Shown one piece after another: positions 2,784 through 22,109 of a stretch of DNA of 35,852 nt. This DNA comes from an uncultured Myxococcales bacterium. Lineage in GTDB: Bacteria; Myxococcota_A; UBA9042. The stretch lies in the NCBI GenBank assembly GCA_903955385.1, contig CAJBNH010000081.1, positions 1 through 35,852 of the forward strand, written 5' to 3'. The translations under genes were made by a program, and so were the position numbers. The notes below the pieces were generated by a model, which saw only the letters and a list, made by a program, of their open reading frames with translations, was not told the origin of the DNA and searched no databases. Position 1 is the first letter of the stretch, and each line of letters starts with the position of its first letter.

Positions 2784-4853
2784 CTAGTCCTCTTCGTCTT
2801 CGATCTTGCGGGTCGACGCGGCGATGATCTTCTCCTGCAGGTGCGCCGGGACCTCTTCGAAGCCCCCAGCTTCCCACACGAATGTGCCGCGGCCTTGGGT
2901 CATCGCGCGCAGCACGGGGGCGTAATTCTGCACCTCGGCCAGCGGGACGGCAGCGGTCACGACCGCGCGCGCGCCGTACTCGGTGTTCGACACGCGGCCG
3001 CGGCGCGAGGTGATGTCGCCCATCACGTCGCCCACGTTCACTTCCGGCACGCTGATGGTCATGCGGACGATGGGCTCGAGCAACAGCGGGTGGCACTTGA
3101 GGAAGCCGCCCTTGAAGCCCTTGGAGCCGGCCATCTTGAACGCGGCTTCCGACGAGTCGACGTCGTGGTACTTGCCGTCGAACACGGTCACCCGCACGTT
3201 GGTCACCGGGTAGCCGGCCAACGGACCGTGGTCCATTGCGTCGACCACGCCCTTCTCGACCGCGGGGATGAAGTTGCGCGGAATCGAGCCGCCGACGATC
3301 GCGTCGACGAATTCGAAGACCTTCTCGCTGTTCGGCTCGATCTTCAGCCACGCGACGGCGAACTGGCCGCGACCGCCCGTCTGCTTCTTGTGCTTGCCTT
3401 CGATCTCGGTCGTGCCGCGGATGGTCTCGCGGTACGGCACGGGCGGCAGCGACAGCTCGACCTCGGTGCCGTACTTGCGCTTGAGGCGAACGACCTGCAT
3501 CTCGACGTGCGCCGGGTTGCCACCGGACAGCGTAAGCTCCTTGGAGAGCTCGTCGTTGCCCAAGCGCAGGCACGGGTCTTCCTCAGTCAGGCGCCGCATG
3601 CCCTCGCGGACCTTGCCTTCGTCGCTCTTGGTGGCGGGGCGGATGATGAAGGTGCTCATCGCGGGCGGGAACGCCGGGAACTCAAGCTTCACCGACGCGG
3701 TCTTGTCGCACAGCGTGTTGCCCGTGTGGGTGTCCTTCAGCTTGGTGACCGCGACGACGTCGCCGACCGTGGCCGCCTGGCAGTCCTTCAGCTTCTTGCC
3801 CTCGAGCCAGTACAGACCGCCGACGCGCTCGCTGTGGCCCAGCGTTGCGTTGCGCACCTCGCACTCAGGCGTCAGCGTGCCGCGCATGATGCGCAGGACG
3901 TTGATGGTGCCCGCATAGGGGTCGATCAGCGTCTTGACGACCAGCGCCGCGAAGGGGCCGTTCGGGTCGGCCGGCACGTCGCCGCCTTCCACCGTCATGC
4001 GGGCCGGGCGATCCAGGGGCGACGGCAGCACCGAGCCAACCTCGAGCAGTCGCTGCACACCCCGATTCGCGGTGGCGCAGCCGTACAGCATCGGCACCAG
4101 CTTGCCAGAGCGGATGCCCTTCTCGACGCCGCGGAAGACCTCTTCCGTCGTCAGCTCGCCAGCCTCGAAGTACTTCTCGAGCAGGGAGTCATCGCCCTCT
4201 GCCGCGCACTCGACGAGCTCCAGATACGCGGTATCGACCTCGGCCACCAGATCCGCGGGGACGGGACCCTTGTCGGTCTTGCCGCTGCCGTCGGTCTTGA
4301 AGAAGTGGGCCTCCTTGCGGAGCAGGTCGACGATGCCCTTGAACTGATCTTCCTTGCCGATCGGCACCTGCAGCGGCACCGGGCGGACGTTGAGGATCTC
4401 CTTGATCTCCTTGACGGTCTTCTCCGGATTCGCGCGCTCGCGGTCCATCTTGTTGATGAAGATGACACGGGGCAGACCCAACTCGACTGCTGTGTTCCAG
4501 TTGCGCTCTGTCTCGACTTCGACGCCGTCGACCGCCGACACGACCAACACGACGGAATCCGCCGCCGCCATCGCGGCACGGGGCTCGTGCGCGAAGCTGC
4601 CGTCTCCGGGGGTGTCGATGACGTGATAGCGCCGACCTGAGAAGTTCAAGGTAGCGAATGTGGTGGCGATGGAGCCACCGCGATCCTGCTCTTCAGGTTC
4701 GAAGTCGAACGTGCTGGACCGCGTATCCACGGAACCCTGCCGGGGCGTGACGCCGCCGTTGAAGAGCATGGCTTCGCCAAGGCTGGTCTTGCCGGAACCT
4801 TGGTGGCCGATGAGAGCGAGGGTGCGGATGACGGCCGGGTCTACGTCTTTCAT
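2784..4853 (-). CDS. Elongation factor G-like GTPase (EF-G paralogue)
   Basis: A 689-residue translational GTPase, the usual EF-G length. The G domain shows a P-loop GHQGSGKTS (residues 16-24), RGGSI in switch I (58-62), DTPG (80-83) and NKMD (134-137). Domains II-V follow, including RGRVSNTEYGARAVVTAAVPL near the C terminus and the SYPV-like GYPVTNVRV segment. The P-loop differs from canonical FusA (normally AHIDAGKTT), and there are no rpsL, rpsG or tuf neighbours. This points to the EF-G-like or EF-G2 paralogue group rather than the main translocase. The ATG at 4853 follows GGAGG (4867-4863) with a 9-nt spacer; an in-frame extension upstream to 5168 would overlap the divergent NYN gene. 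Function beyond a ribosome-associated GTPase is inferred. Confidence 0.9.
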   Translation of the reverse strand: MKDVDPAVIRTLALIGHQGSGKTSLGEAMLFNGGVTPRQGSVDTRSSTFDFEPEEQDRGGSIATTFATLNFSGRRYHVIDTPGDGSFAHEPRAAMAAADSVVLVVSAVDGVEVETERNWNTAVELGLPRVIFINKMDRERANPEKTVKEIKEILNVRPVPLQVPIGKEDQFKGIVDLLRKEAHFFKTDGSGKTDKGPVPADLVAEVDTAYLELVECAAEGDDSLLEKYFEAGELTTEEVFRGVEKGIRSGKLVPMLYGCATANRGVQRLLEVGSVLPSPLDRPARMTVEGGDVPADPNGPFAALVVKTLIDPYAGTINVLRIMRGTLTPECEVRNATLGHSERVGGLYWLEGKKLKDCQAATVGDVVAVTKLKDTHTGNTLCDKTASVKLEFPAFPPAMSTFIIRPATKSDEGKVREGMRRLTEEDPCLRLGNDELSKELTLSGGNPAHVEMQVVRLKRKYGTEVELSLPPVPYRETIRGTTEIEGKHKKQTGGRGQFAVAWLKIEPNSEKVFEFVDAIVGGSIPRNFIPAVEKGVVDAMDHGPLAGYPVTNVRVTVFDGKYHDVDSSEAAFKMAGSKGFKGGFLKCHPLLLEPIVRMTISVPEVNVGDVMGDITSRRGRVSNTEYGARAVVTAAVPLAEVQNYAPVLRAMTQGRGTFVWEAGGFEEVPAHLQEKIIAASTRKIEDEED

Positions 4854-4913
4854 AAGCGATTGCCTCCACTTATCTGACAACTGCGGACCGCCCGCGGGCG
4901 CGGGTAGGGCGGC

Positions 4914-4942
4914 ATGATAGATGCGATGCAAGCGGCTTCCAA
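4914..4942 (-). promoter_or_regulatory. Putative promoter of the EF-G-like gene
   Basis: On the minus strand TTGGAA (4942-4937), 17 bp, then TATCAT (4919-4914). The predicted leader is about 55 nt and ends in a strong GGAGG site. It lies back to back with the promoter for the divergent NYN gene. Confidence 0.45.
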
Positions 4943-10618: not shown

Positions 10619-12724
10619 CTACTGATTCACCCAAATCATCGCGCCGACCGACTGGTCGTCGTCGTAGGTTCGCGTCGGGTTGGCCGGGTTCAGGTCAAAG
10701 CCCCAGCGCGCCGACGGGCCGTCGAGCCAGATCGACCACTTGCGAAAGGCGATGCCCAGGCCCGACGCAAGGTCGAACACGCCCATGTCGCTGACCTGGC
10801 CCAACCCCGCGGAGTTCTTGCCGATCGACGCCGTTCCGGTGCCGCGCAGGAACAGCGACTTGGTCCCCACGGCAATGTCGGGTCCCGTGTAGGCGGTCGG
10901 CGGCACCTGGCCGGTGCACGAGTCGCACCAGCGCAGCAAGTCGCGCTTGAGATAGAGGAATTCCATCTCGATGCCGCCGTCGCTGTCGCCGTCGTCGTCG
11001 AAGTCCGCTTCGGTCTGCGTCACTTGCGGCATCGACCCGGTGACATCGAGCACGACGACCGCGTGCCGGTCCAGGTCGGTGCGCGTCGTGCCGATGCCCT
11101 TCTGCACCGACGCCTTGACCTGGCTGCTCTTGCAGTGGGGCATCGCGTAAAGCCGCTTGCCGTCTGGCGACGACCCAAACGACCCGGGCAGCAGGCCGAA
11201 GCCGGTGGTCTCGATCTGGGTCAGGAACTTGCCCTCGACGTCCAGAACCTCGATGCCCTTGTCGCTGCCGACCAGGAGTCGCGGCGTGGCCCCCACCGGC
11301 ACGGCAGCGAAGGCGGGCGGCCACGCGTTGGTCGAGCCGCACTTCTCGTTGGCCGTTCCCGCTGAGGTTGCCGTGCGCTTCTCGAAGTCCACCTTGCCAT
11401 CCGGGCTGATGGGCACCCGGTACACCGCCGTCTGGGCGCTCTTGCCGGCGATCTTGGCCTCGTCCGTCAGCTGGCCGGACCACGACGGTTCCATCAGCAG
11501 CAGGTGCTGGCCGATCGCCGCCACGCCGCGGAAGATCCGCTTGGTGCTCAGGAATTCGCTCTTCTTCTTGTCGTACGTCTCGATGATCTTGCCCGCGCCC
11601 GTGGCATCCAGTTCGACCACCATCAGGGCATACGCCCCCGTCGTCGTCAGCGCGCCGGCACCCTTGAAGTCGATCAGGTACAACCGGGTCTTGTCGCCGT
11701 CGAACAGAGCCGCGCCGCGGCAGGGCCAGGGCAGCGACTCGGCGCCCGGGCTCAGGCAGCTGCCGTCGGCGCAGTCGGGGTGGGGAATGTAGACCGACCC
11801 GCTGGCAAACTTGTTCGTCGCCAGGTCATACGTGAACACCCGAGCGCCCTTGCCGCCCGCGCCCATCACGTGCAGCGACGAACCCTGACCGCGCACGAAG
11901 CCGCACAGGTCGCCCGCGAACGGCTTGCCGTCGACCAGGGGCGCCACCCCCGCACCCACACTGTAGGTCGCCAAGTCCACGGACTTGATGTGGTTGCGAA
12001 AGCCGCCCTCGCCCGACGTCGCCAGAACCACCCGTCCGGCCTCGGGGGCGACCGGAAATGCCGGCGTCGACACCAGCAAGTGCCCCAGCACCACCACGCC
12101 CATGTCGGCCGGCGCGGCGTCGGACAGCGTGACGGCGGTGGTGCCCGTTAGCGGATTCTTGCCCTCCGACGGCTTGGGGTCGGCGCCGGCGGCCTGCAAT
12201 GTGTCGAAAGGACCAAAGGATCCCGTCTGGTCGGCGGCGTCGCCGTAGTCCTGGCTGTACTTCGAGTCGAGCGCCACGCGGGCGAAGTAGCTGCCCGACG
12301 GAAGACCGCCCACCAACAACGGAATCGTAGAGCCAGACGCCAGCAGCGCGTCGGTCTTGACCTTGTCGGACCACACGACCTTCAAGCAGTTCGCGTCCTC
12401 GCACAGTTGTACGTACAGGTTGCCGCGCACCAGCTTCGACCCCGAGGTCAGGTAGCTGCGCAGCGACGACACGACCTGATTCGGAAAGTCTTTCGCGATG
12501 CGGACTTCCGCCTTCAGCTGGGCGGCACCCACCGGGTTCACCACATCGGCGCTCAGGCCCACATCGGCCTGCTCGGGGGCAACATCCACCGGCACGTCTT
12601 GCACCGTGTCGGTCACTTCCGTCACGTCAAAGGGCACGTAGGCCGTGGTCGGAGCCACCTCGCAGCCTGCCAGCACGGTCACCGCCAAGGAGCAAAGGGT
12701 CACCAACGGAAAGCGCAGGGTCAT
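10619..12724 (-). CDS. Large lipoprotein with beta-propeller-like repeats, third gene of the YGGP/radical SAM operon
   Basis: A 701-residue protein with a lipoprotein signal ending in VLAGC (C21) and then an Asp/Val/Thr-rich linker (about 25-60). Residues from about 200 on contain repeated short strand patterns of the kind seen in beta-propellers (RVVLATSG, RVFTYDLAT, RLYLIDFKG, RLLVGSDKGIEVLDVEGKFL, SPDGKRLYAMPH, HAVVVLDVTGSMP), suggesting a YVTN/WD-like surface domain. A DFDDDGDSDGG acidic stretch may bind calcium. I do not recognise a named family. The ATG at 12724 has GAGGAG at 12736-12731 with a 6-nt spacer. It begins 34 bp after the radical SAM gene, so it is probably cotranscribed and may be a partner or receiver of the modified lipoprotein (inference). 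Confidence 0.8.
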   Translation of the reverse strand: MTLRFPLVTLCSLAVTVLAGCEVAPTTAYVPFDVTEVTDTVQDVPVDVAPEQADVGLSADVVNPVGAAQLKAEVRIAKDFPNQVVSSLRSYLTSGSKLVRGNLYVQLCEDANCLKVVWSDKVKTDALLASGSTIPLLVGGLPSGSYFARVALDSKYSQDYGDAADQTGSFGPFDTLQAAGADPKPSEGKNPLTGTTAVTLSDAAPADMGVVVLGHLLVSTPAFPVAPEAGRVVLATSGEGGFRNHIKSVDLATYSVGAGVAPLVDGKPFAGDLCGFVRGQGSSLHVMGAGGKGARVFTYDLATNKFASGSVYIPHPDCADGSCLSPGAESLPWPCRGAALFDGDKTRLYLIDFKGAGALTTTGAYALMVVELDATGAGKIIETYDKKKSEFLSTKRIFRGVAAIGQHLLLMEPSWSGQLTDEAKIAGKSAQTAVYRVPISPDGKVDFEKRTATSAGTANEKCGSTNAWPPAFAAVPVGATPRLLVGSDKGIEVLDVEGKFLTQIETTGFGLLPGSFGSSPDGKRLYAMPHCKSSQVKASVQKGIGTTRTDLDRHAVVVLDVTGSMPQVTQTEADFDDDGDSDGGIEMEFLYLKRDLLRWCDSCTGQVPPTAYTGPDIAVGTKSLFLRGTGTASIGKNSAGLGQVSDMGVFDLASGLGIAFRKWSIWLDGPSARWGFDLNPANPTRTYDDDQSVGAMIWVNQ

Positions 12725-12758
12725 CGGGAACTCCTCAACGGGCAGGGCAGGGTTGCGG

Positions 12759-13895
12759 TCAGGCGGGCGCTCGCGTCGTGGCGCCATCCTGACGATCCAG
12801 CCAGCAGAATTCGTCGGGTTGCACCAGTCGCTCGTGCAGGCCGCCGCCGCCGCAGACCTCGAACCACGAGCAGTCTTCGCAGGGTCCGGTCTTGCGCCAC
12901 GCCATGTCGCGGTGTTGCTTGAACTCGGTGCGCCAGATCTCGGAGAAGCGCCGTTCGAGCGCCGAGCCCTGGGCCATCGAGCGCGGCAGCGACGGGCACG
13001 CGCTGACCTGACCGTCGGCCAGGATCGACGCCACGCACAACCCGGCGAAACACTGCGAGTCACCCGGGCGAATCTTCAGCTCGCGCTGCACGCCGAGAAA
13101 GCCGCCGCAGGAGAAACGCACGTCGAATTTCTCTTTGTTCTTCTTGATCTCTGCGCGTCGTGTCTCCAGAAAGTCGAACAGCTGGCGCACCTGCGGCGGC
13201 TCGAGCCACAGGTCGGGCCCGTCCAACTCGGCGCGGCCCATGCGGTCGATCGTGATCAGCCGCTGCATCGTCGCGCCCGCTGCGCGCACGGCCTTCTCGA
13301 TCTCGCGCAGGTGATCCAGATGCACCGGGCGCACGCAGGTGATGGCCTCGACGCGCCGAAAGCCGATCGCCCGCGCCGCCGCGATGCCGTCCAACGCCTT
13401 GCGCCACGAGCCCTTGCCGCGCACCGCCTCGTGCTCGTCTTCCAACCCGTCGATGCTGACGCAGATGGTCCGCATCCCCGCGTCCCACAGCGCCTGGGCC
13501 TTCTCGCGGTCCAGCAGCGTGCCGTTGGTGACGATGCAGCTGCGCATCCCCAGCGACGTCATGTGCGCGACGACCTCGAACAGGTCCTTGCGCAGCAGGG
13601 GCTCGCCGCCCGTGACCGACACGAAGATGCGCTTGGCGTTGAAGTCTTGCGCGATGGTGTCGAGGATCGCTTTGACTTCAGCCGTTTCCAGCTCGCGCAC
13701 CGGCGACTTGCCCTCGCAGCTCGACCCGCAGTGGCGGCAGCGCAGGTTGCAGCGCAGCGTCGCCTCCCAGAACAGGTACGTCATGTCGGGCTTGGTGAAG
13801 AGGCGCCCGCGGCGGGCAGCGTCGCGGCGCACGGCGACCAGCTTGGGCAGGTCCATCAGGCCGACGTCGCCGGCGCTTTTGCGGAACAGGGACAT
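12759..13895 (-). CDS. Radical SAM/SPASM peptide-modifying enzyme
   Basis: A 378-residue cytoplasmic enzyme. The radical SAM cluster ligands are C49, C53 and C56 in CNLRCRHC, with C60 nearby and the SAM-binding GGEPL at 96-100. The C-terminal SPASM region carries eight cysteines (263, 282, 287, 300, 339, 342, 348, 364), enough for two auxiliary 4Fe-4S clusters. This architecture is shared with maturases that form carbon-carbon, thioether or ether links in ribosomal peptides, and with anaerobic sulfatase activators. No sulfatase is near. The gene directly before it encodes a lipoprotein with seven YGGP repeats, which makes that protein the likely substrate (inference). The ATG at 13895 is 70 bp after the stop of that gene. 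Confidence 0.92.
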   Translation of the reverse strand: MSLFRKSAGDVGLMDLPKLVAVRRDAARRGRLFTKPDMTYLFWEATLRCNLRCRHCGSSCEGKSPVRELETAEVKAILDTIAQDFNAKRIFVSVTGGEPLLRKDLFEVVAHMTSLGMRSCIVTNGTLLDREKAQALWDAGMRTICVSIDGLEDEHEAVRGKGSWRKALDGIAAARAIGFRRVEAITCVRPVHLDHLREIEKAVRAAGATMQRLITIDRMGRAELDGPDLWLEPPQVRQLFDFLETRRAEIKKNKEKFDVRFSCGGFLGVQRELKIRPGDSQCFAGLCVASILADGQVSACPSLPRSMAQGSALERRFSEIWRTEFKQHRDMAWRKTGPCEDCSWFEVCGGGGLHERLVQPDEFCWLDRQDGATTRAPA

Positions 13896-13965
13896 GGCGC
13901 TCCGTGGTGTGGGACCGGCCGTCGCGCGGGGCGTCGCCCGTCCGGGGGCAACCGGCGTGTGGGGG

Positions 13966-14514
13966 TCAACCGGCGTCGACCGGGCCGCCGTACTTTACCG
14001 CGGGGCCGGTGTCGATCGTGTCATTGGCGTCGTGATCGACGTCTTCGCTCGTGTCGAACGGGCCGCCGTACATCGGAGCAATCTCAGGACCTTGCGAACC
14101 GTCGTCGGCGTCCACGTCCATCGGACCGCCGTACTTCGTCGCGATCTCGATGTCCTCGGTCGTGTCGGCGGGGCCACCGTACTTGGTGGCGACGTCAGAG
14201 GCGCCTGCGTCTTCGTCGATGTCCATCGGACCACCGTACTTGGTGGCGACGTCGGTAGCGCCTGCGTCTTCGTCGATGTCCATCGGACCGCCGTACTTGG
14301 TGGCGGTCTCGGATGCCGTGTCGGCCTCCGCGTCAGAAAGGGTGTCGGGTGGCCCGCCGTACTTGGCCGTGTTGTCGGCGGAAGGGTCGGCGGGTGTCTC
14401 GCACCCCGGCAACGCCGCCAGCGCCGCACCGCCGGTAGCGACCACCCACAACCCTGCTGCCTTGTTCAAGAAATCGACCAGGAACGAGCGTCGTGAAGTC
14501 GTGACGGAAGCCAT
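13966..14514 (-). CDS. Tat-exported lipoprotein with seven YGGP repeats, putative radical SAM substrate
   Basis: A 182-residue protein. Residues 7-12 (SRRSFL) form a twin-arginine motif, followed by a hydrophobic stretch and a lipobox ALPGC (C38), so it should be folded or modified in the cytoplasm, exported by Tat and lipidated. The rest is a hydrophilic acidic chain with YGGP motifs whose tyrosines are at 52, 74, 93, 112, 128, 149 and 175. Most read (A/T)KYGGPxD followed by a Asp/Glu-rich spacer; repeats two and three are nearly identical 19-residue units. The last repeat ends five residues before the C terminus. Repeated short cores plus an adjacent radical SAM/SPASM gene suggest a multi-core modified peptide. 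The ATG at 14514 has AGGAGG at 14528-14523. The exact modification is unknown. Confidence 0.88.
   Translation of the reverse strand: MASVTTSRRSFLVDFLNKAAGLWVVATGGAALAALPGCETPADPSADNTAKYGGPPDTLSDAEADTASETATKYGGPMDIDEDAGATDVATKYGGPMDIDEDAGASDVATKYGGPADTTEDIEIATKYGGPMDVDADDGSQGPEIAPMYGGPFDTSEDVDHDANDTIDTGPAVKYGGPVDAG
14188..14301 (-). repeat. 57-bp tandem repeat encoding two 19-residue YGGP units
   Basis: Two almost identical 57-bp units begin at 14188 and 14245 and differ at only a few bases. They encode repeats two and three of the YGGP lipoprotein. The high DNA identity points to a recent in-frame duplication of the core unit. Confidence 0.85.
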
Positions 14515-16715: not shown

Positions 16716-16778
16716 TGCATTTCCCCCTGATTCCTTCCGATCCGCTGCGCGGGTCGCCTACTTGTGGTGGAGGTCGTG

Positions 16779-19058
16779 ATGGCAGCGTGGAAGCGTGGCG
16801 TGCTGGGCGTCGCATGTGTCCTGGGCGCGCTGTGGGGGACCGTGGCCGTCGCCGCCGTGCCCGCGACGGTGTTGGTCGAGGGCGCGCTGGTCTCGACGGG
16901 CGGCGGTCCAGTGGCCGACGGCGACTACGACGTGACGTTCGCGCTGTACGACGTGGACAAGAACGGTCAGGCGCTGTGGTCTGAGGGGCCGACGAAGATC
17001 GCGGTGCAGGGTGGCCAATTCACGTACTTGCTGGGCAGCGTGACGCCGATTGACGCAACGGTGCTGGGCAAGCTGGACAAGGGCTGGCTGGAGGTGGCGG
17101 TCGCCCCCGACCCGGCGCTGCCTCGCAAGCCCTTGGCTTCCGTGCTGTTTGCCCGCAAGGCCGGTATTGCGGAGAGCCTGTCTTGCTCCGGGTGCATTGG
17201 CGCCGCGCAGCTGGACGCGCAGGTGCTTGCGCCGTTCGCCAAGGCAGCCGACCTGTCGAAGGTCGCGACCTCGGGCGCCTACGCCGACCTGTCGGGCACG
17301 CCGGACCTGTCGGGGTACGCGCAGTCCGCCAACCTTGCCAAGGTCGCGACTTCCGGCGCGTTTGCCGACCTTGCCGGTGGCCCAGACCTGACGGCCTATG
17401 CCAAGACGGCCAGCCTCGCCGATGTCGCGACGACCGGCAGCTACACCGACCTGGCGGGCACGCCCGTCCTGGCCAAGCTGGGCGCCGCGTGTGGATCTGG
17501 ATTGGTGATCAAGGGGTTGAAGGAGGATGGCTCGTATGACTGCGTCAAGGCATTCGACGTCAGCCTGCTGCCCCCGGACGGACTGAACGAGATCTCCAAC
17601 GGTCTGCTGACCAACCAGTTCGTCGACGACGTCAAGAGCACCAAGGTTCCCGTGGACATCCCCGACAACAACCCGGTTGGCGTGGCGAACGTGATCGCAG
17701 TGCCGGACCTGGGCGTCGCGCAAGGGCTGGACGTCACGGTCGAATTGACGAACTCCGACATCTCCAAGATCGCGGTGGAGGTCTACGATCCGGCCGGCAC
17801 CAAGTACGTGCTGCACAGCAAGAGCGGCTCGGGCACCAGCCTGAAGACCACCTATCCGTCGACCACCAAGACGGTCAGCGGCGACCTGACTTCCTGGATT
17901 GGCAAGAACCCCAAGGGCAACTGGTCGCTCAACGTCATCGACACGGCGTTCCTGAACAACGGAGTTGACGGCAAGCTGTTGAATTGGAGCGTGAAGATCC
18001 AAACCCTGTCGTCGCAGAAGGTCTCATCCGTGGGCCTGCTGGTGACCGACGGCGGCCTGCAGGTCAAGCGCGCCGACAGCGCACCGGTGACGTGCAGCAC
18101 CGCAACGTTCGGCTACATCTACGCCAGCCCCAAGGACAACGCGCTGTACGTCTGCAACGGTGCGAAGTTCTTCCCGTTGTGGCTGACGGTACCCCCGGGC
18201 GGCAGCCAGGACGACCCGGGCCAGAGCTGCAAGCAGATCCTGACGGTCGGGCCCGCCAGCAAGAGCGGCCTCTACTGGCTCGACCCAGACGGCGCGGGCG
18301 GCGTGGACCCGTTCCAGACCTGGTGCGAGATGAGTGCAGCTGGCGGCGGCTGGACCCTCGTCTTCAACCTCGACACCAACGATGGAACAGGGCGCTGGTA
18401 CACCGACACCGACTTCTGGACCAACGCCAGCAAGCTCTTCGGCACGGCGGCCGGAGCGTTGACGGGCGACTTCAAGAGCCAAGCGTTCAACGCTCTGGTG
18501 GCCAACGAGATCATGGTCTTTGCGCACAACGAGGGCGCTCCCTTCAGCAATCCCCAGCCGTTTGCCGCGTACAGCTTGGCCGTTGCCGCGAAGAACAAGA
18601 CGATGGCGCAGATCATGGCGTTTGGCGCCAACACGACCATCACCTCTGGCAGCCCGGTCCGCCAGGGCACCGTCTCCGCCACGGGCGCCTACACGCGCAA
18701 CGCGGGCGACGTCTTCATCGACAACGGCCTGCCCATCCTCGTGAATTCCACCAACGCAGGCGGATCGGACGCCCAGAACACGGTTCGCATCGGCACCGAC
18801 TTCGGACCGGTCTGCGGCACGGTGAGTTGCAACGGCCACAATGTGCAGGGCGGCTACGGCGGCTACCACATCCGTCCGTCCGGCGGGAACTATCCGCTGA
18901 CCTATGAAGCGATGCCCAGCTTCGGCTATCACCCCGGACCGATGGGCTTCGGCGACAACTGGGTCAACAACAACGGCTGTGGCAACTCGGTGTGGAGCAA
19001 CACCTGCGGTCCCGAAGTTGCACGGCCGCAGGTCGACTTCGGGATCTTCGTGCGGTAG
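16779..19058 (+). CDS. Secreted multidomain protein: tail-fibre-like repeats, P domain and fibrinogen-like domain
   Basis: A 759-residue protein with a Sec signal (cleavage likely after residue 26, AVAA). Residues 27-125 form a beta-rich segment ending VLFARKAGIAES. Three repeats (about 160-235) read KVATSGAYADLSGTPDLS, a pattern common in phage tail fibres. A proprotein-convertase P domain (about 275-410) includes the conserved GVANVIAVPDL, VEVYDPAGT and GNWSLNVIDTAFLNNG segments. From about residue 483 a fibrinogen-related domain begins with SCKQIL, SGLYWLDPDG, WCEMSAAGGGWTLVF and ends in FGIFVR. Such proteins bind sugars or surfaces outside the cell; this one is probably exported or surface-displayed, though no sorting tag is visible. 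GGAGG (16769-16773) supports the ATG at 16779. Confidence 0.85.
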   Translation: MAAWKRGVLGVACVLGALWGTVAVAAVPATVLVEGALVSTGGGPVADGDYDVTFALYDVDKNGQALWSEGPTKIAVQGGQFTYLLGSVTPIDATVLGKLDKGWLEVAVAPDPALPRKPLASVLFARKAGIAESLSCSGCIGAAQLDAQVLAPFAKAADLSKVATSGAYADLSGTPDLSGYAQSANLAKVATSGAFADLAGGPDLTAYAKTASLADVATTGSYTDLAGTPVLAKLGAACGSGLVIKGLKEDGSYDCVKAFDVSLLPPDGLNEISNGLLTNQFVDDVKSTKVPVDIPDNNPVGVANVIAVPDLGVAQGLDVTVELTNSDISKIAVEVYDPAGTKYVLHSKSGSGTSLKTTYPSTTKTVSGDLTSWIGKNPKGNWSLNVIDTAFLNNGVDGKLLNWSVKIQTLSSQKVSSVGLLVTDGGLQVKRADSAPVTCSTATFGYIYASPKDNALYVCNGAKFFPLWLTVPPGGSQDDPGQSCKQILTVGPASKSGLYWLDPDGAGGVDPFQTWCEMSAAGGGWTLVFNLDTNDGTGRWYTDTDFWTNASKLFGTAAGALTGDFKSQAFNALVANEIMVFAHNEGAPFSNPQPFAAYSLAVAAKNKTMAQIMAFGANTTITSGSPVRQGTVSATGAYTRNAGDVFIDNGLPILVNSTNAGGSDAQNTVRIGTDFGPVCGTVSCNGHNVQGGYGGYHIRPSGGNYPLTYEAMPSFGYHPGPMGFGDNWVNNNGCGNSVWSNTCGPEVARPQVDFGIFVR

Positions 19059-19529: not shown

Positions 19530-22109
<2,580 letters not shown>

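Follow-up and report, generated by a model that had tools for sequence, protein, structure and literature searches.

A minus-strand gene pair from an uncultured Myxococcales bacterium joins a lipoprotein-like protein with seven YGGP cores, P0001, to a radical SAM/SPASM enzyme, P0002, whose clade is sister to the PlpX-type spliceases. The YGGP lipoprotein and the neighboring enzyme are conserved as a pair, to which the downstream gene, P0003, does not belong, and the element that stays constant among the partners of such enzymes is Tyr-Gly. Judged from sequence relationships, the most likely reaction of P0002 is tyramine splicing, with a probability of about 0.6. P0002 would then be a splicease-like maturase that works without a PlpY partner, with P0001 as its substrate; the same figure applies jointly to this assignment and to the explanation as a whole. 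The window referred to throughout is the entire 35,852-nucleotide stretch of DNA analyzed, and its relevant features are collected in Table 1.

Table 1. Features of the P0001–P0002 locus, in window coordinates
Feature	Position	Strand	Remarks
P0001, lipoprotein-like substrate candidate	13966-14514	-	182 aa
P0002, radical SAM/SPASM enzyme, TIGR04133-like clade	12759-13895	-	378 aa; Pfam, NCBIfam, tree, model
P0003, lipoprotein-like orphan, downstream	10619-12724	-	701 aa
Tat-type signal and lipobox-like segment of P0001, residues 1-38	14401..14514	-	SRRSFL...ALPGC, motifs by eye
Seven cores of P0001	span 13981..14364	-	
KYGGP cores	14350-14364, 14284-14298, 14227-14241, 14170-14184, 14122-14136, 13981-13995	-	
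MYGGP core	14059-14073	-	

The three genes follow one another in the order P0001, P0002, P0003, separated by gaps of 70 and 34 bp, and each is preceded by a purine-rich stretch resembling a ribosome-binding site. P0001 and P0002 probably constitute a single operon. Long plus-strand open reading frames also run across the YGGP cores in the window; these are antisense artifacts, since conservation elsewhere falls on the minus-strand proteins. P0003 had been taken for a large propeller-like lipoprotein belonging to the system. Its N-terminus is indeed lipoprotein-like, but the propeller finds no support: Pfam and NCBIfam profile searches returned no family above cut-off, and the single-sequence structure model is uninformative (pLDDT 32). 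As a third component it is rejected, because none of the 52 related genomes searched contains a homolog and relatives carry different genes in its place. Elsewhere in the window, positions 16764-19058 of the plus strand encode a secreted protein with matches to a proprotein-convertase P-domain and to a fibrinogen/collagen C-terminal-like domain, and its family has undergone a striking paralog expansion, with 118 matching stretches in the same genome.

The YGGP cores of P0001 number exactly seven (KYGGP six times and MYGGP once), just as the initial annotation had counted, and shuffling the protein's own residues 20,000 times never produced more than two YGGP per shuffle. By eye, a twin-arginine motif can be read in its N-terminus, MASVTTSRRSFLVDFLNKAAGLWVVATGGAALAALPGC, along with a cysteine in a lipobox-like position, which suggests that the protein is probably lipid-anchored; within the lipobox-like ALPGC, the proline at −2 is unusual. 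Aspartate and glutamate make up 32% of the mature spacers. P0001 has no NCBIfam match, hence neither a Nif11/NHLP leader nor a TIGR04134 assignment, and a profile search of the window's genome likewise returned no TIGR04134 match.

The pairing persists in close relatives. Six further genomes encode an enzyme 59-83% identical to P0002, and in all six a K-YGGP lipoprotein lies directly upstream. Together with P0001, these seven lipoproteins carry 2 to 7 cores each, 33 in total (32 KYGGP and a single MYGGP), so that the cores account for 33 of their 35 tyrosines. All of them retain a signal and a lipobox-like cysteine; the twin arginine is present in five, reads KR in another, and is missing from the last. 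The signal region is the most conserved part outside the cores, and the spacers range from acidic to Pro/Ala-rich, a pattern that looks like tight constraint on core and signal segment only. The acidic spacers emphasized in the initial annotation are thus a property of P0001 that its relatives do not share, and the Tat-type signal likewise holds for the window's small group, most partners elsewhere having Sec-like signals. P0001-like proteins were found only in enzyme-bearing genomes. The proposal that the YGGP lipoprotein belongs with the radical SAM enzyme is therefore borne out in the window and in six of six relatives, and, as detailed below, by YGxP neighbors across phyla.

P0002 matches the Pfam models Radical_SAM (1.2e-26) and SPASM (1.9e-7), and its CxxxCxxC motif comprises C49, C53, and C56. 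Eight cysteines follow residue 260 (263, 282, 287, 300, 339, 342, 348, and 364), in agreement with the eight initially ascribed to the SPASM region, but only six of them (282, 300, 339, 342, 348, and 364) are family-wide in the alignment; C263 marks the close clade and C287 is absent from one close relative (L013), so the number eight is partly incidental. The best NCBIfam model is TIGR04133, whose 269.7 bits exceed the next score (134) by a factor of two and fall below the cut-off of 425. Against TIGR04103, P0002 scores 125 bits, similar to its scores against other SPASM families, where the cut-off is 725. An AlphaFold2 model (pLDDT 92) opens with one helix, after which comes the radical SAM barrel; it shows no separate recognition domain, and its closest solved folds are anSME, SkfB, and BlsE. 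The first of these, anSME (4k36-4k39), is the nearest at 19% identity; it works on a protein and carries no fused recognition domain, and differs in that its substrate is a sulfatase Cys/Ser. PqqD-type domains in the window's genome reside on other contigs only. No PlpY-like protein was found near the P0002 gene, in a search of low sensitivity whose Nostoc query also came back empty at other loci.

Beyond the immediate relatives, 110 loci were assembled with the P0002-like enzyme as the sole criterion of choice; their sources were one named genome collection and relatives of the window's genome, and by record title they include Myxococcota, Bacteroidota, Bacillota, Spirochaetota, Fibrobacterota, Planctomycetota, Pseudomonadota, and Actinomycetota. 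Every AB.C pattern was counted in the same-strand neighbors and compared with shuffles. YG.P is the top neighbor pattern, present at 75 of the 110 loci against 11.75 expected, the loci not being independent since some come from related or identical genomes; the next pattern reaches 15 against 2.85. A looser count places YG.P within 1.2 kb at 83 loci. Among the remaining 27, about ten have a neighboring secreted-looking YG protein without proline at +3, and several others are cut by contig ends. Control loci of AhbD-like, heme-b-synthase-like enzymes, drawn from the same phylum with the same flanks, carry the motif in 6 of 30 cases versus 26 of 30 for P0002-like enzymes, and a reading frame with two or more motifs in 0 of 30 versus 19 of 30. 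A partner filter based on signal hydrophobicity dropped true cases and was left out of these rates. Annotated Parabacteroides and Treponema records agree, in that TIGR04134 lipoproteins with YGSP or YGMP adjoin TIGR04133 enzymes.

The same loci help to define the target, initially placed at the tyrosine or its Gly-Gly-Pro context. Those without proline at +3 still bear YG, as in VYGIW repeats (L014), ACYGPYY (L070), and ACYGAQ (L073); the constant element is Tyr-Gly, and proline is common without being obligatory. The residue before the tyrosine is mostly Leu or Val in the wider family. The L014 partner, encoded downstream of its radical SAM gene, repeats VYGIW or LYGIW cores devoid of proline and so follows a different core grammar. 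In Ruminococcus-type partners (L091, positions 4076-4924; also L099, L110, L114, and L116), YGPP sites occur together with a dockerin type I domain, identified by Pfam in L091 and by eye in the rest, which suggests modified proteins attached to cellulosomes. A Telmatospirillum-labeled partner (L071, 6010-6534) is a Pal-like lipoprotein that bears an OmpA domain, a Tat-like signal, and one LYGPPP site. Several Myxococcota partners (L021, L034, L035, L063, and L106) alternate YGPQPC/YGPPPC with Cys-rich segments (ETDEDCRQRYGAGWYCD), an arrangement suggestive of disulfide-bonded modules around YG sites.

The kind of chemistry that P0002 might perform, on which the initial annotation was silent, is suggested by its phylogenetic position. 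A maximum-likelihood tree of 57 proteins was built with AhbD-like outgroups, leaving out the long-branched radical SAM proteins of the window's genome; PlpX itself is not in the tree and is represented by a Nostoc TIGR04103 member (853 bits), TIGR04103 corresponding to IPR026482, the entry where PlpX is filed. P0002 and the Parabacteroides and Treponema TIGR04133 members fall into one 37-row clade with support of 100/100. The TIGR04133-like enzymes, P0002 included, group with TIGR04103/TIGR03913 to the exclusion of AhbD-like, TIGR04053, TIGR04347, and MftC proteins, a join that consists of one branch, well but not overwhelmingly supported (96/91), with long outgroup rows. P0002 is thereby sister to the PlpX-type enzymes, not nested among them. 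Both sides have in common a Gly-Ser immediately after CxxxCxxC, as well as Ala222, Glu272, and Arg276, mostly absent in the outgroups. The relation to TIGR04133/TIGR04134 raised in the initial annotation accordingly stands at the level of the clade, through the best model and the annotated YGSP/YGMP partners, and does not extend to formal membership, as P0002 lies below the cut-off and P0001 lacks a TIGR04134 match.

Substrate motifs converge on the same connection. Published PlpX splice tags read RPxYGLPI, that is, YGxP, and the published PlpX rule is XYG, which the YG sites without proline fit. The Nostoc enzyme above the TIGR04103 cut-off adjoins a Nif11 precursor ending in ALYGLPPELF, which contains LYGLPP, and TIGR04103-like enzymes of the window's own phylum pair with YGLP/YGMP repeat proteins, bridging the two sides. 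Taken together, the splice tags, the Nostoc precursor, the tree join, the common residues, and these bridging pairs make tyramine splicing the likeliest reaction. Against it stand the 125 bits to TIGR04103, the lack of a PlpY-like partner nearby and of a Nif11/NHLP leader, and the unusual proline at −2. Chemistry may also vary within the PlpX-side group: beside TIGR03913 enzymes, DUF1843 peptides (L120 and L128) have cores that vary among YG, YA, and YM, and the requirement for glycine may be looser in that clade.

Comparison with the characterized spliceases sharpens the differences. The PlpX/PlpXY system of Pleurocapsa PCC 7319 (IPR026482, TIGR04103-type) likewise employs a radical SAM/SPASM enzyme of the sister clade on several Xaa-Tyr-Gly sites per precursor, often YGxP. 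PlpX differs in needing PlpY and in acting on precursors with Nif11/NHLP leaders, whereas the window offers no PlpY-like gene, a Tat-type lipoprotein substrate, lysine before nearly every tyrosine, and an enzyme below the TIGR04103 cut-off. Leader-independent tyramine splicing has reportedly been described by Richter et al. in 2024. One paper remarks that PlpY itself falls short of the size of a canonical recognition element, and it cites work on leader-independent splicing (PMC12710340). The TIGR04133 (rSAM_w_lipo) and TIGR04134 (radical SAM-associated putative lipoprotein) systems share with the window the same enzyme clade and an adjacent YGxP lipoprotein, but the TIGR04134 proteins seen have mostly one YG site and a beta-rich domain, while P0001 has seven cores. 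The TIGR03913 maturase with DUF1843 “GDL” peptides resembles it in its PlpX-side position and YG-like sites, and differs in having small, non-secreted peptides, some with YA or YM cores.

The same Tyr-Gly sites could instead undergo some other radical chemistry, such as side-chain crosslinking, epimerization of Gly or Tyr, oxidation, or decarboxylation, leaving a modified but unspliced lipoprotein. SPASM enzymes catalyze a wide range of reactions, anSME and SkfB come nearest among solved folds, and mycofactocin MftC, also a SPASM enzyme, acts on a peptide tyrosine too (PMC8326336), albeit at a C-terminal VY site, with an MftB partner, and from outside the clade in the tree. The relation to PlpX as sister rather than nested, the missing PlpY-like partner, and the high frequency of proline at +3, beyond what XYG requires, point the same way. 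Set against this are the motif and the derived residues common to the PlpX-type clade, in view of which we regard a different chemistry as less likely than splicing, though as the next most likely reading.

If P0002 is a splicease, it would act in the cytoplasm, before export, at each Xaa-Tyr-Gly of P0001 (six KYG and one MYG). The tyramine part of each tyrosine (C8H9NO) would be excised from the backbone and the ends rejoined, whereupon the Lys or Met ahead of that tyrosine would become an alpha-keto-beta-amino (ketoamide) residue. The enzyme may also use the signal region, residues 1-38, as a recognition element. Since Tat exports finished proteins, there would be time for modification before export; Tat would then carry the modified P0001 out of the cytoplasm, Cys38 would receive its lipid, and the protein would stay on the envelope, its cores not released. 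The predicted product is a flexible tether that bears as many as seven reactive ketoamides. Spliceotide products are described as protease inhibitors; with the residue before the ketone in the P1 place, lysine would suggest trypsin-like targets. Both the protease target and the role of modified P0001 are speculation: the product could possibly be a multivalent inhibitor or trap of trypsin-like proteases.

Retention on the envelope sets this splicing scheme apart from a classical RiPP precursor, in which modified cores would be cut out and released as small peptides and the signal would serve as leader only. Repeated cores in copy numbers of 2-7 do recall multi-core precursors. The loci read, however, hold no conserved protease or peptide exporter beside the pair, the signal and lipobox-like cysteine occur in all seven proteins, and some partners in other phyla bear folded domains such as OmpA and dockerin, which together render release improbable.

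A second Tat-type lipoprotein is encoded in the same genome on contig C137 (positions 19988-20317, plus strand; L221 and L219), with three KYGG cores (KYGGP, KYGGLP, and KYGGP) and a signal segment closely similar to that of P0001. No radical SAM gene adjoins it. P0002 is the only TIGR04133-like enzyme found in the genome, the next match being AhbD-like, so P0002 probably serves both lipoproteins, the C137 protein as a substrate in trans, and may recognize the signal segment. A homolog of the paralog-rich gene at 16764-19058 follows this second lipoprotein; a tie between the two is rejected, as 118 genome matches make chance sufficient. That YGGP is an unmodified structural or ligand-binding repeat, with the enzyme acting elsewhere and the genes mere neighbors, is very improbable, for although C137 lacks an adjoining enzyme and Gly/Pro-rich YGGP runs are also present in other places in the phylum (a phylum-wide search with a DNA pattern of three closely spaced YGGP codons retrieves mostly such low-complexity runs), the association with the motif across phyla greatly exceeds both chance and the controls, and P0001-like proteins keep to genomes with the enzyme.

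The two families and the one reaction are known already; what the window adds is the link between them and a lipid-anchored, Tat-type, Lys-rich multi-site form. A survey by Scott et al. (2022, Chem 8:2659), which deals with widespread spliceases, may already cover some of this, including TIGR04133 members. A literature search for TIGR04133, YGGP, or YGxP together with radical SAM returned nothing relevant. More tentatively, TIGR04133/TIGR04134 systems of gut Bacteroidota, rumen Clostridia, spirochaetes, and myxobacteria might form a splicease branch that puts ketoamides into envelope proteins that are never released, and the Lys-ketoamides here might constitute a multivalent covalent trap for trypsin-like proteases on the surface, one enzyme serving two substrates.

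TIGR04133 still goes by the description of a hypothetical enzyme family, and TIGR04134 by that of a putative lipoprotein, although gut and rumen bacteria commonly carry the pair. Connecting the family with tyramine splicing supplies a single definite prediction that is cheap to test, a loss of 135.07 Da (C8H9NO) per YG site. A multi-site splicease without a partner protein could serve as a labeling tool, given that with PlpXY expression takes long and tags must be placed with care (PMC10533398). If the splicing reading is true, backbone-edited proteins containing beta-amino acids would be common in bacterial envelopes, beyond peptide natural products.
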